Assembly: GCF_002874775.1 (NCBI RefSeq)
Contig: NZ_CP020991.1
Location: 248,001-312,000 of the forward strand
Length of the DNA: 64,000 nt
Direction of reading: 5' to 3'
From: Monoglobus pectinilyticus
GTDB lineage: Bacteria; Bacillota; Clostridia; Monoglobales; Monoglobaceae
Shown here: positions 29,965 through 33,814 of the stretch, piece after piece
Layout of the letters: each line of letters starts with the position of its first letter
Numbering within the stretch: position 1 is the first letter of the stretch
Made by a program: the position numbers and the translations under genes
Notes under the pieces: model-generated
The model's database searches: none
Told to the model about the DNA's origin: nothing
The model's input: the letters and a program-made list of their open reading frames with translations, nothing else

Positions 29965-31452
29965 TTGATAGATACAAATTTAAAAAATAATGAGAATACC
30001 GTAAAACAGCTGTTTAACTCAGATAAGAATATTGATTTTAACTTTCGCGAATTTAAAGTTGAGTTTAAAAACGAAACGGCTGACGCTTTTTTAATATACT
30101 ATGACGGAATGTCAAATCAAACATTTTTAAACCGCGATATTATGCGGTCTTTGCTCACATGCAAAGCGTATGACACAAGCGTAACACCAAAAAAAGATAT
30201 TGTTTTTAAACAAATAGTATCAGTGGCGCCTCTAAGCATTGCCGAAGATTTTGATTTAATCGGAGAAAAAATCTCTTTTGGTGAATGCGGTATCTTTATA
30301 GACGGCTGCGACTGCTGTTTTATAGCCGATATAAAAGGCTGGGACTCACGAGGAGTTGATTCGCCTACTCAGGAAGTCAGCCTTGCGGGACCTCAGGAAG
30401 CGTTTGCCGAATCTATAATGACAAATTTAGCACTTGTTAGAAAGATATTAAAAAATCCTAAATTAACCGCCACTAATATTCCGGTAGGCAAAACAAATAA
30501 AATTCCCTGCGCTTTAATGTACATTGAAGGAATAACAAACAGCAAGCTTATCAAAGAGGTAACTAGAAGATTAAAAGATATAGATACCGAGTATATATTT
30601 TCTTCAAGTGATGTTGAAATGCTGATAGAAGACACCACTTATTTTCCTATGACTAGAACCTTAAAAACAGAGAGACCCGACAGAGTTGCCTCAATGCTTG
30701 TCGAGGGAAAGGTTGCAATAATAGTTCAGGGCAGCCCATTTGCATTGATAGTTCCAACTACTTCATTAGATTTGATAGAAGCCACAGAAGACAATTATGT
30801 ACGTGTTCCCGAGGCAAATTTGATGAGATTAGTACGAATATTTGGCATGTCTCTGTCAATTCTTCTTCCTGCACTGTTTATTGCCGTAATGTTATACCAC
30901 CAGGCAATTCTCCCCACTGACTTACTAATAGCTATTTCAGCCAGCCGTGAAAAAGTTCCATTTCCACTTATAGTAGAATTAATCTTAATGGAAATATCAT
31001 TTGAACTTATAAAAGAGGCATCCGTCAGAGTACCAAACCCAATTGGCAGCACTCTTGGTATAATCGGTGGACTGATTTTAGGCCAGGCTGCAGTTGAAGC
31101 AAGCATAGTCAGTCCAATATTAATAATAATAGTATCAATAGGCGGAATTGGAGCATTTTCGACACCAACCTTATCACTTTCAAGATCTCTCAGCGTATTA
31201 AAATTTGTATATATAGCAGCGGCATATTTGTTTGGAATAGTTGGTCTGGTGGCTGCTATAATGATAACTTTGTCAGGATTGGCAGCGACTAAAACGTTTG
31301 GGTTTCCATTTCTATCCGATTTCGGAATTAACGTTCGTTCATCTGAATCATTGCTTGTAAAACCAATATGGAAAAAAGAAAGACGTCCGGCTGAACTCAA
31401 AACAAAAGATAATATAAAACAGCCGCACATAAGCAGAAAGTGGAAAAAATAA
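29965..31452 (+). CDS. GerA-family spore germination protein, A subunit
   Basis: About 495 residues. The N-terminal cytoplasmic half has the GerAA motifs FNFREFKVEFKNETADAFLIYYDG-like start, KGWDSRGVDSPTQEVSLAGPQEAFAES and LVEGKVAIIVQGSPFALIVPT. The C-terminal half has about five membrane spans with PFPLIVELILMEISFELIKEAS(V/I)RVP(N/T)PIGSTLGIIGG, the most conserved GerA signature. The protein sits in the spore inner membrane as part of a nutrient receptor that forms an ion channel. I prefer TTG 29965, four bases after AGGTGAT; a GTG at 29956 lies inside that ribosome site. It ends 11 bases before the fused GerB-GerC gene. Confidence 0.9.
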   Translation: MIDTNLKNNENTVKQLFNSDKNIDFNFREFKVEFKNETADAFLIYYDGMSNQTFLNRDIMRSLLTCKAYDTSVTPKKDIVFKQIVSVAPLSIAEDFDLIGEKISFGECGIFIDGCDCCFIADIKGWDSRGVDSPTQEVSLAGPQEAFAESIMTNLALVRKILKNPKLTATNIPVGKTNKIPCALMYIEGITNSKLIKEVTRRLKDIDTEYIFSSSDVEMLIEDTTYFPMTRTLKTERPDRVASMLVEGKVAIIVQGSPFALIVPTTSLDLIEATEDNYVRVPEANLMRLVRIFGMSLSILLPALFIAVMLYHQAILPTDLLIAISASREKVPFPLIVELILMEISFELIKEASVRVPNPIGSTLGIIGGLILGQAAVEASIVSPILIIIVSIGGIGAFSTPTLSLSRSLSVLKFVYIAAAYLFGIVGLVAAIMITLSGLAATKTFGFPFLSDFGINVRSSESLLVKPIWKKERRPAELKTKDNIKQPHISRKWKK

Positions 31453-31463
31453 AAGGAAACAGA

Positions 31464-33452
31464 GTGATATCTATGAATAAAAAAAATATCAATTTAGGTA
31501 TATGGTGTTTAACATTTAACTGTCTGCTGATAAAAATATTTATAGGATTTTCGAACATTCTGCTTCACGAGACAGGTTCTTCATCATGTTTGGCATTAAT
31601 CTTTAGTTTTGCTGTATTTACGGCGATTTTGTTTATAGTTTACTTTTTCAAAAGATATTTTATATTGAGCCTTAAAAACACTTATTTAAGAAACACTATA
31701 TTTGTGATATTAATTGGTTATTTAATATCACATAATATATATTTTATTTACCAGCTGATTAATACAATAAACAACAGCGCTTATCCCAATACTCCTCTTT
31801 GGATTGTCTTGACATTAATTGCTGTTACAGTGCTGATTGTTGGAATCAGAGACTTTTCGTCTATCTTAAAACTGCATAGTATATGCGTTCCGTTAATAAT
31901 AATTGGATTGATTATAATTTCAATAAGCAGTATAAAATATGATGATATATATAATGCTCTTCCTGTATTAGGAAATGGAATCGCTTCCACGATAAGCAGC
32001 GGATTCAAACATCTGTTTGCATTTTCAGAAATAATAGTTCCAATTGTATTTTTAACAATAATGCCTGAAGAAAAGTCTAAAAATATAAACCGTTCAAAAA
32101 TTATATTATACTCAGCAATTATTGGCGCTGGGATTTACAGTATATTTACTATAATATCTCTGCTGGCAATCCCGACCGACTCTGTTTTTGTAGCAGAAAA
32201 TAATCCATTGTTCCATATATCAAGATTTTCAGGTATAAACCGGCTTAACACCCGGCTTGATGTGTTAAATATAATTATTTCAATCACATCCGGTATATTA
32301 TATTTATCAACATCACTTGCGGTCATAAGAATTCTTATGAAAAAAATTGGTTTACCAAAAAACAGCTTCATGAAAACAACCGCGTCAATATTGGTATTGT
32401 TAATTGGAATAGTTCCTCTTTGCGGCTGTTACGACAACAGGGATATTGAAGATACCGCATATGCAATAGCTGTTGGCGTAGATAAAGACGAAAATACAGG
32501 TTCATTGATATTCTCATTTCAATTTACAAATCCGCTGACAACCGGAGAAAATACAGACCCGCAAAATTCAGGTTCAGAAGAAAGTGAAACAGAAAATAAG
32601 TCAGTAAACAATATTTCAATTGATGCTGATAATATATTTGACGGTTTAGAGAGCGTTAAAAGATTTATAGGCAAAACGCCATCACTTTCACATTTAAAAC
32701 TTATTGTCTTTTCAAAATCAATAACTAACAGTGATGGGTATTTAAAAAATATCTGTGAAGATTTTATTAACATTAATGATGTGCGTCCGGAAACTAAAAT
32801 ATGTATAGCAAGCACAGATACCGCTAAAGAGTATCTATATGGAGTCAACCCATCACTCGAAGAAAGTATGGCTAGATATTATGAATTATTATTTTCAGAT
32901 TCTTCTACAACCGAAACTTTGCAAACAAATTTAAGAACATTTTTAATAAAACTTACCGGTAGTTCAGGAGACGGGTATCTTCCAATTATTTCACCGGATG
33001 GATTTACGGGGGCAATCTTGTTTTCCGGGGAAATACCCAAAATAGAACTAAGTAATCATGAATGTCAAATTATAAACATACTTTTAGGGATAGAAAGAGA
33101 TTCTATATTTTTTACTTCCGAATCCACCAATCAAGTCTACAAGATAAAAAGTTCATCACCTAATATAAAAACAAATATAGAGAATAAAAAAATCAGTGCT
33201 GAAATTGAAACCAAAATATTTGCCAAGAAAAATCAAAATGGTTCTGAAGATAATTATGAATTGCTCTATGAAGATTTAATGAATGATAGTAAAAATTTAA
33301 TTGAAAAAATATATCAAAATCAATGTGATATATTATCAATCGGAAAATTTGCAAAATCTAAATTCTTATATGAATACGAATGGAAAAATGTAATCCAAGA
33401 AAAAGAAAATATCATAAATATACCGACCGTTAATATTAATTTATTATATTGA
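31464..33452 (+). CDS. Fused GerB-GerC spore germination protein
   Basis: One frame of 662 residues covers what are normally two genes. Residues 1-300 are a GerAB-type amino-acid/polyamine-permease-like membrane protein with about nine spans. Residues 303-322 read like a lipoprotein signal peptide ending in the lipobox LCGC (Cys322). After it, CYDNRDIEDTAYAIAVGVDKD is the start of mature GerAC, and the rest matches GerAC (PSLSHLKLIVFSK, DVRPETKI, and a long C-terminal alpha/beta domain). The B part's last span and the C part's signal peptide appear merged. The in-frame ATG at 32370 begins the C part but has no ribosome site, so independent translation looks unlikely. I prefer GTG 31464 (six bases after GGA); ATG 31473 is possible. 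Confidence 0.88.
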   Translation: MISMNKKNINLGIWCLTFNCLLIKIFIGFSNILLHETGSSSCLALIFSFAVFTAILFIVYFFKRYFILSLKNTYLRNTIFVILIGYLISHNIYFIYQLINTINNSAYPNTPLWIVLTLIAVTVLIVGIRDFSSILKLHSICVPLIIIGLIIISISSIKYDDIYNALPVLGNGIASTISSGFKHLFAFSEIIVPIVFLTIMPEEKSKNINRSKIILYSAIIGAGIYSIFTIISLLAIPTDSVFVAENNPLFHISRFSGINRLNTRLDVLNIIISITSGILYLSTSLAVIRILMKKIGLPKNSFMKTTASILVLLIGIVPLCGCYDNRDIEDTAYAIAVGVDKDENTGSLIFSFQFTNPLTTGENTDPQNSGSEESETENKSVNNISIDADNIFDGLESVKRFIGKTPSLSHLKLIVFSKSITNSDGYLKNICEDFININDVRPETKICIASTDTAKEYLYGVNPSLEESMARYYELLFSDSSTTETLQTNLRTFLIKLTGSSGDGYLPIISPDGFTGAILFSGEIPKIELSNHECQIINILLGIERDSIFFTSESTNQVYKIKSSSPNIKTNIENKKISAEIETKIFAKKNQNGSEDNYELLYEDLMNDSKNLIEKIYQNQCDILSIGKFAKSKFLYEYEWKNVIQEKENIINIPTVNINLLY

Positions 33453-33562: not shown

Positions 33563-33814
33563 ATGAAACCTACTAGTGTCATTCGTGAATTAGATCACTA
33601 TGGACGTCTCGTTATTCCGAGCGAAATGAGACGGGTACTAGGTCAATCAGATGATGAAAAAATAAGAGTTGAAATATATACATTAGACAATAAGATATTT
33701 ATTCAAAGAGTTACGCCTTGCTGTGCTTTCTGTGATAGAGAAGATAATTTAGTTGAATACAGGGGAAAAATGATTTGCAAATATTGTCTTAATGATTTAA
33801 CCAAACAAATATAA
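33563..33814 (+). CDS. AbrB/SpoVT-family transcriptional regulator with C-terminal zinc-ribbon-like motif
   Basis: An 83-residue protein. Residues 5-50 form a swapped-hairpin AbrB DNA-binding domain (RELDHYGRLVIPSEMRRVLG), the transition-state regulator family that represses sporulation and stationary-phase genes until Spo0A-P accumulates. The C-terminal third carries C54-x2-C57 and C72-x2-C75 (CAFC, CKYC), a four-Cys zinc-ribbon-like tail. The start is ATG 33563, directly after AAGGAGGT; an upstream in-frame extension is not needed. It has its own promoter and terminator. Targets are unknown. Confidence 0.9.
   Translation: MKPTSVIRELDHYGRLVIPSEMRRVLGQSDDEKIRVEIYTLDNKIFIQRVTPCCAFCDREDNLVEYRGKMICKYCLNDLTKQI

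Follow-up and report, generated by a model that had tools for sequence, protein, structure and literature searches.

A GerB-GerC fusion gene in the spore receptor locus of Monoglobus pectinilyticus and its relatives

The stretch of DNA analysed here, from the gut bacterium Monoglobus pectinilyticus (the window; 64,000 nucleotides, positions 248,001 to 312,000 of contig NZ_CP020991.1), carries a locus for a nutrient receptor of the GerA type, made up of gerA and then a single gerBC gene, with the receptor parts side by side in the order A-B-C. One SASP gene match was found in the genome as a marker of spore formers. All the features of the window described below lie on the forward (+) strand. 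The GerA subunit (PF03323, 5.4e-147) is encoded by gerA at 29965..31452, directly upstream of gerBC. The gerA ORF is open from GTG 29956, and TTG 29965, which has the better Shine-Dalgarno match, is probably the start used. In nine of 17 loci, a SigG-like box lies at -45/-46 relative to the gerA start chosen; its score was mostly not above that of shuffled sequences, and it is not claimed. Just downstream of gerBC, a small ORF (33563-33814) has a strong Shine-Dalgarno sequence, AAGGAGGT, ahead of its ATG 33563, a weak match of the AbrB/SpoVT-N type (3.4e-4 to the SpoVT model, well under its cut-off) and paired CxxC motifs.

The gerBC ORF (31464..33452) encodes 662 residues, for an estimated mass of about 73-74 kDa, and ends at TGA 33450-33452. 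Its reading frame is open from GTG 31440 in the ORF list, and GTG 31464, served by a Shine-Dalgarno-like AAGGA at 31453..31457, is the probable translation start. Three Pfam domains were found in this frame above their cut-offs: Spore_permease (PF03845) at residues 73-317 (6.5e-10, 38.8 bits against 23.4), Spore_GerAC_N (PF25198) at residues 324-510 (8.6e-26, 91.3 bits against 27), and the C-terminal Spore_GerAC domain (PF05504) at residues 516-643 (7.6e-07, 29.8 bits against 23.6). A preliminary description of this DNA had reported GerB and a full GerAC part in one 662-residue frame, and both points are borne out. Both NCBIfam subfamily models scored below their cut-offs, TIGR00912 on the GerB part (32.4 against 139.55) and TIGR02887 on the GerC part (115.9 against 163.25); therefore, the two parts are both divergent. 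When the genome (G000; 2,757,678 bases in one contig) was searched with PF03845 at E 0.001, a setting which more distant GerB relatives could escape, gerBC was the only match.

The GerB part covers residues 1-295 (31464..32348), as delimited by the Spore_permease match, the AF2 model and the Foldseek matches to APC transporters. It is followed by a basic loop (32349..32363), predicted to be cytoplasmic from K+R against D+E in 19 sequences, which leads from TM8 to the GerC signal helix (residues 301-319, 32364..32420; a helix in the AF2 model and a hydrophobic peak). Next comes the lipobox L319-C320-G321-C322 (32418..32429), a proposed Lgt site with a proposed LspA cut before Cys322. The GerC part occupies residues 323-662 (32430..33449) and contains both GerAC domains; its nearest solved structure is GerBC 3n54, by sequence and by fold. 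As read from the sequence, GerB and GerC, which are separate proteins in most receptors, are joined exactly where the predicted lipid-anchor signal of GerC starts. The codon of Cys322 in LCGC, counted from GTG 31464 as in the preliminary description, lies at 32427-32429. L319 and C322 do not vary among 19 fused proteins (19/19), G321 is kept in 18 (Ser in one), and the hydrophobic columns ahead of the lipobox vary. The lipobox stands after a hydrophobic helix with a basic n-region, as expected of a GerC; an N-terminal signal on a polypeptide of its own is lacking, GerC being fused to GerB.

Eight spans precede the signal helix in the GerB part according to alignment, hydropathy and AF2. With these eight and the GerC signal helix, the window protein falls short of ten GerB spans. 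Since C. botulinum GerXB proteins are given 7-10 predicted helices in the available sections of PMC5083711, ten spans should not be a strict requirement for GerB. In the AF2 model built from 19 sequences (mean pLDDT 78.7, pTM 0.76), the GerB helices were placed at residues 6-26, 30-61, 73-103, 112-128, 131-157, 173-199, 210-235, and 265-295, and were followed by a ninth helix (301-319) and the GerC domain, with a break between these two at 321-329, where pLDDT is below 50. The mean K+R/D+E counts over the 19 sequences were 4.63/1.37, 2.58/0.11, and 3.63/2.21 for loops 2-3, 4-5, and 6-7, and 4.84/0.26 for loop 8-9 (residues 290-306). For loops 1-2, 3-4, 5-6, and 7-8 they were 1.32/0.68, 1.16/0.74, 1.21/1.05, and 3.21/2.79, and for GerC residues 322-334 they were 1.00/3.26. 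This positive-inside pattern predicts that GerB is N-in, that the loop between TM8 and the signal helix is inside, and that GerC is outside. When the AF2 model was submitted to Foldseek, no match but GerBC 3n54 (5.6e-08) reached 0.001 or lower. AdiC, at an E value of 1.3e-3 (above 0.001), was matched with probability 1.00 and a TM-score of 0.53-0.54 by target length, which points to an APC/LeuT-like fold in this one model, and LAT1 structures were among the weak matches. A sequence profile compared with solved structures returned 3n54 at 6.8e-07 and nothing else below 0.6.

The same fusion was then sought in clostridial genomes. The frame was found in 11 of the 12 genomes of the genus, window included, with 36-42% identity in the other ten and no stop or frameshift in any of them, so that the merger of two separate genes considered in the preliminary description is not borne out. 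The genome without a match, G001, is 74% complete, and a match reported in two pieces (G011) is actually one frame of 718 aa. PF25198 was matched in 34 of the 38 family genomes, one sub-cut-off row of G037 being left out of the count, and was not found in G001, G021, G025, and G031. Fusion-sized frames (623-718 aa) were present in 20 of these 34 genomes (g1, 11; g5, 1; g6, 3; g9, 5), and unfused-sized frames (367-431 aa) in the other 14, which belong to the genera g2, g3, g4, g7, and g8. A related-locus search with the single window protein as query gave no loci; with alignment A2 as query, the scan of named genomes gave 23, 19 fused and four unfused. Ructibacterium gallinarum DSM 107454, Candidatus Roslinia caecavium, rabbit Monoglobus MAGs, and MAGs titled uncultured Ruminococcus were among the fused ones. 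The 19 fused proteins share 24-40% identity with the window protein. The fusion is real and does not stem from a slip in assembly, given that genomes from four genera, each assembled separately, have the same frame. In eight chosen pairs, dN/dS was 0.12-0.21 in GerB and 0.12-0.22 in GerC, and across the junction (codons 297-324), where changes are few, it was 0.08-0.38. The gerA frame was open beside gerBC in all 18 fused loci whose stretch was fetched, some of them cut at the locus end, and gerA was 487-509 aa long in the 17 read to the start.

A GerA tree and the GerB C-termini of the unfused relatives bear on how the fusion arose. In the tree of 41 rows, the fused family members formed one clade of 18 rows (support 100/98) whose sister was the unfused genus g3 (99/97); G011 and G036, whose contigs lack gerA, are not in the tree. 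The deep joins are unsure, since long outgroup branches meet there. The unfused GerB proteins of g2, g7, and g8 extend 64-74 residues past TM8 with two further spans and end after TM10; in g8, the second of these spans alone passes the hydropathy threshold, and the g7 locus L066 was left out of the comparison for want of a GerB match. In both g4 rows GerB extends 29 residues past TM8 with one span and ends after TM9; the loss of TM10 in these loci (L059, L061) is apparently a separate event. In both g3 rows, only nine residues and no span follow TM8, and GerC is separate with its own signal. In all 20 fused family rows the recognisable GerB ends after TM8, and a short loop leads to a single hydrophobic helix with the lipobox behind it. 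These tail lengths suggest that the GerB C-terminus was eroded and that an eight-span GerB then joined a whole GerC signal. Since the g3 GerB ends after TM8 and its GerC has its own signal, the loss of TM9-TM10 with the whole GerC signal next is the simplest reading. The preliminary description had taken the GerC signal peptide to be merged with the last span of GerB, and this is probably imprecise on the evidence of g3; however, the Pfam Spore_permease match extends across the signal helix to residue 317, and this helix may therefore be a remodelled TM9. The g3 GerC frame (L060 in G014, L069 in G013) opens at the GerB stop, which it overlaps, and no ATG, GTG, or TTG was found in it before the lipobox; a Shine-Dalgarno-like AAGGGGGTGA stands there, with ATT after it. 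In g3, GerB and GerC may be linked either by a rare AUU start or by a +1 frameshift, and the translation of GerC already seems to be tied to that of GerB.

A second fusion was found in G049, a genome of family f6 in the same order. Its GerB and GerC lie in one open frame of 812 aa (L053:2220-4382) with the lipobox LTGC, ten hydrophobic spans precede the signal helix, and the gene order is BC-A. The GerA of G049 groups with that of its split relative G050 (100/100), far from the clade of the window, so that this fusion, known from one genome, apparently had a separate origin; the whole GerA tree needs two changes for the fused state, of which G049 is the second. The number of spans before the signal is even in both fusions, and GerC should therefore be exported in both if GerB is N-in.

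Wider searches were carried out over the class and the phylum. In the class survey with PF25198, 272 of 391 genomes matched, and among the matches listed no frame exceeded 542 aa; since fused proteins score low and the matches listed are the top ones, this survey cannot count fusions. A junction profile (A4) matched 249 of the 391 class genomes at E 0.01. At least 12 matches were stop-free over positions 1/2-100, and among the matches listed these were all in the family of the window, at 124.8-134 bits, the next match listed standing at 72.1 bits. Three A4 matches outside the family, stop-free from position 8-16, belong to frames whose length, 410-459 aa, does not suffice for a fusion. In six more long frames (547-826 aa; L118-L122, L126), a stop lies between GerB and GerC or the two are in different overlapping frames, and none is a fusion. 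In the phylum scan (398 genomes, 14 matching at 1e-12), the junction was covered by the match of the window itself only. As far as these profile scans reach, the full junction appears confined to the family of the window; since A4 picks up G049 only weakly (9.1e-4), it would miss fusions of other origin, and unrelated ones like that of G049 could escape. No B-C fusion was named in the titles and abstract openings of the literature searched, in which subscription journals are thinly covered; the words 'fused' and 'fusion' do not occur in the available sections of PMC5083711, nor 'fused' in those of PMC11841064.

In the standard lipoprotein pathway, SPII cutting follows lipidation, and a lipobox behind eight spans is an unusual substrate for Lgt and LspA. 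The genome has one LspA match and two Lgt homologues (C1:2197826-2198536 and 1418652-1419377), of which one, as a guess, serves the forespore. We propose, as a fairly probable outcome, that Cys322 is lipidated and that LspA then cuts, which would yield a GerB with nine helices and a lipoprotein GerC. The ribosome would make one chain from gerBC, GerB would be inserted N-in with its eight spans, and the GerC signal helix would cross outward, so that GerC would come to lie on the outer surface of the inner spore membrane. Cys322 would be lipidated by Lgt, and LspA would most likely cut before it. The products would be a GerB of eight spans with the left-behind leader helix at the place of TM9 and a lipid-anchored GerC beside it, so that the receptor would have B and C in a 1:1 ratio and in one place from the moment of synthesis. 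Somewhat more tentatively, gerBC may encode a self-separating polyprotein whose leader, after the LspA cut, works as a ninth GerB helix in place of TM9-TM10, whose B and C parts are 1:1, whose kind of fusion arose at least twice, and which reports topology, with GerB N-in and TM8 ending inside.

It is possible, though rather doubtful, that the chain stays uncut and that GerC is tethered to GerB by the signal helix as a permanent ninth span, Cys322 maybe being lipidated. This is the main rival, and a serious one, since the available sections of PMC11841064 propose that GerKC keeps its leader: a long hydrophobic stretch before the Cys makes SPII removal unlikely there, lipidation presumably prevents cleavage, and GerKC may thus retain a hydrophobic N-terminus. 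The signal helix also occupies the position of TM9, for which it could substitute in the structure, the permease match extends through this helix, and the break at 321-329 fits a flexible linker equally well. However, the entire lipobox is kept across fused proteins that share 24-40% identity with the window protein, although a tether would require no more than a hydrophobic helix, and LspA is encoded in the genome. The two outcomes named in the preliminary description, SPII release and a tethered GerC, thus both stand, and the sequence does not choose between them; the invariant lipobox suggests that at least lipidation is favoured.

The other alternatives fare worse. That gerBC is a decaying, non-functional remnant with a truncated GerB, fused by a lost stop, would fit the loss of two GerB spans, the NCBIfam scores of both halves, and its being the sole GerB found in the genome; yet the frame is open in 20 family genomes, dN/dS is well below 1 in all three segments of the eight pairs, and the adjoining gerA frame is open, which makes this very improbable. 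Slightly less probable still is that GerC is made also, or only, from an internal start before the signal (ATG 32370, 32337, or a rare codon). In-frame ATGs do lie at 32337 and 32370, ATGs also occur close to the junction in several relatives (L045, L047, and L048 among them), and a rare start is conceivable in the family since the g3 GerC seems to use none of ATG, GTG, and TTG. However, ATG 32337 has a 3-base Shine-Dalgarno match and ATG 32370, which the preliminary description had singled out as a possible strong start, has none, no better than other in-frame codons, and the ATGs are not conserved. In the 60 codons ahead of the lipobox, a count of ATG, GTG, and TTG gave none in L049 and a single ATG at -42 in L052; L011 has a single TTG (codon 278) between codons 265 and 344, and both of these codons lie inside TM8. 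An assembly or sequencing error that merged two genes found no support and is refuted by the recurrence of the frame noted above.

The kind of receptor is known; what is new is the two-gene layout with an eight-span GerB and an internal lipoprotein signal. The B. subtilis GerAA-GerAB-GerAC receptor shares the A-B-C order, the Spore_permease GerB, and the GerAC domains with a lipobox, whereas the window has B and C in one gene and a GerB with eight spans of its own. The g3 receptor shares a GerB ending right after TM8 and differs in its two frames; the G049 fusion shares the single GerB-GerC frame with a lipobox and differs in its ten spans and the order BC-A. LAT1 with 4F2hc/CD98hc likewise pairs an APC-fold subunit with an outer-face partner. 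Those two are encoded by separate genes, and the fold of CD98hc differs from that of GerC. The analogy with heteromeric amino-acid transporters has been drawn for GerAB/GerAC (sections of PMC8617281).

The B:C ratio and contacts of the receptor rest largely on predicted models, as pentamer or hexamer, according to the sections available of PMC11841064 and PMC13170314, and a natural B-C fusion is independent evidence of direct 1:1 B-C pairing. For GerAB, the available part of PMC8038838 gives ten suggested spans and 11 in the UniProt prediction; if GerC is outside, the end of TM8 is inside, which argues against the 'outside' label of the GerAB termini there. The fusion also suggests that eight GerB spans beside a signal helix can suffice. 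Moreover, structural work could use gerBC as a receptor core in one chain, and whether LspA can cut behind a polytopic domain could be tested on it. The fusion gives a hint from nature of how the sensor for the waking of dormant spores is put together.
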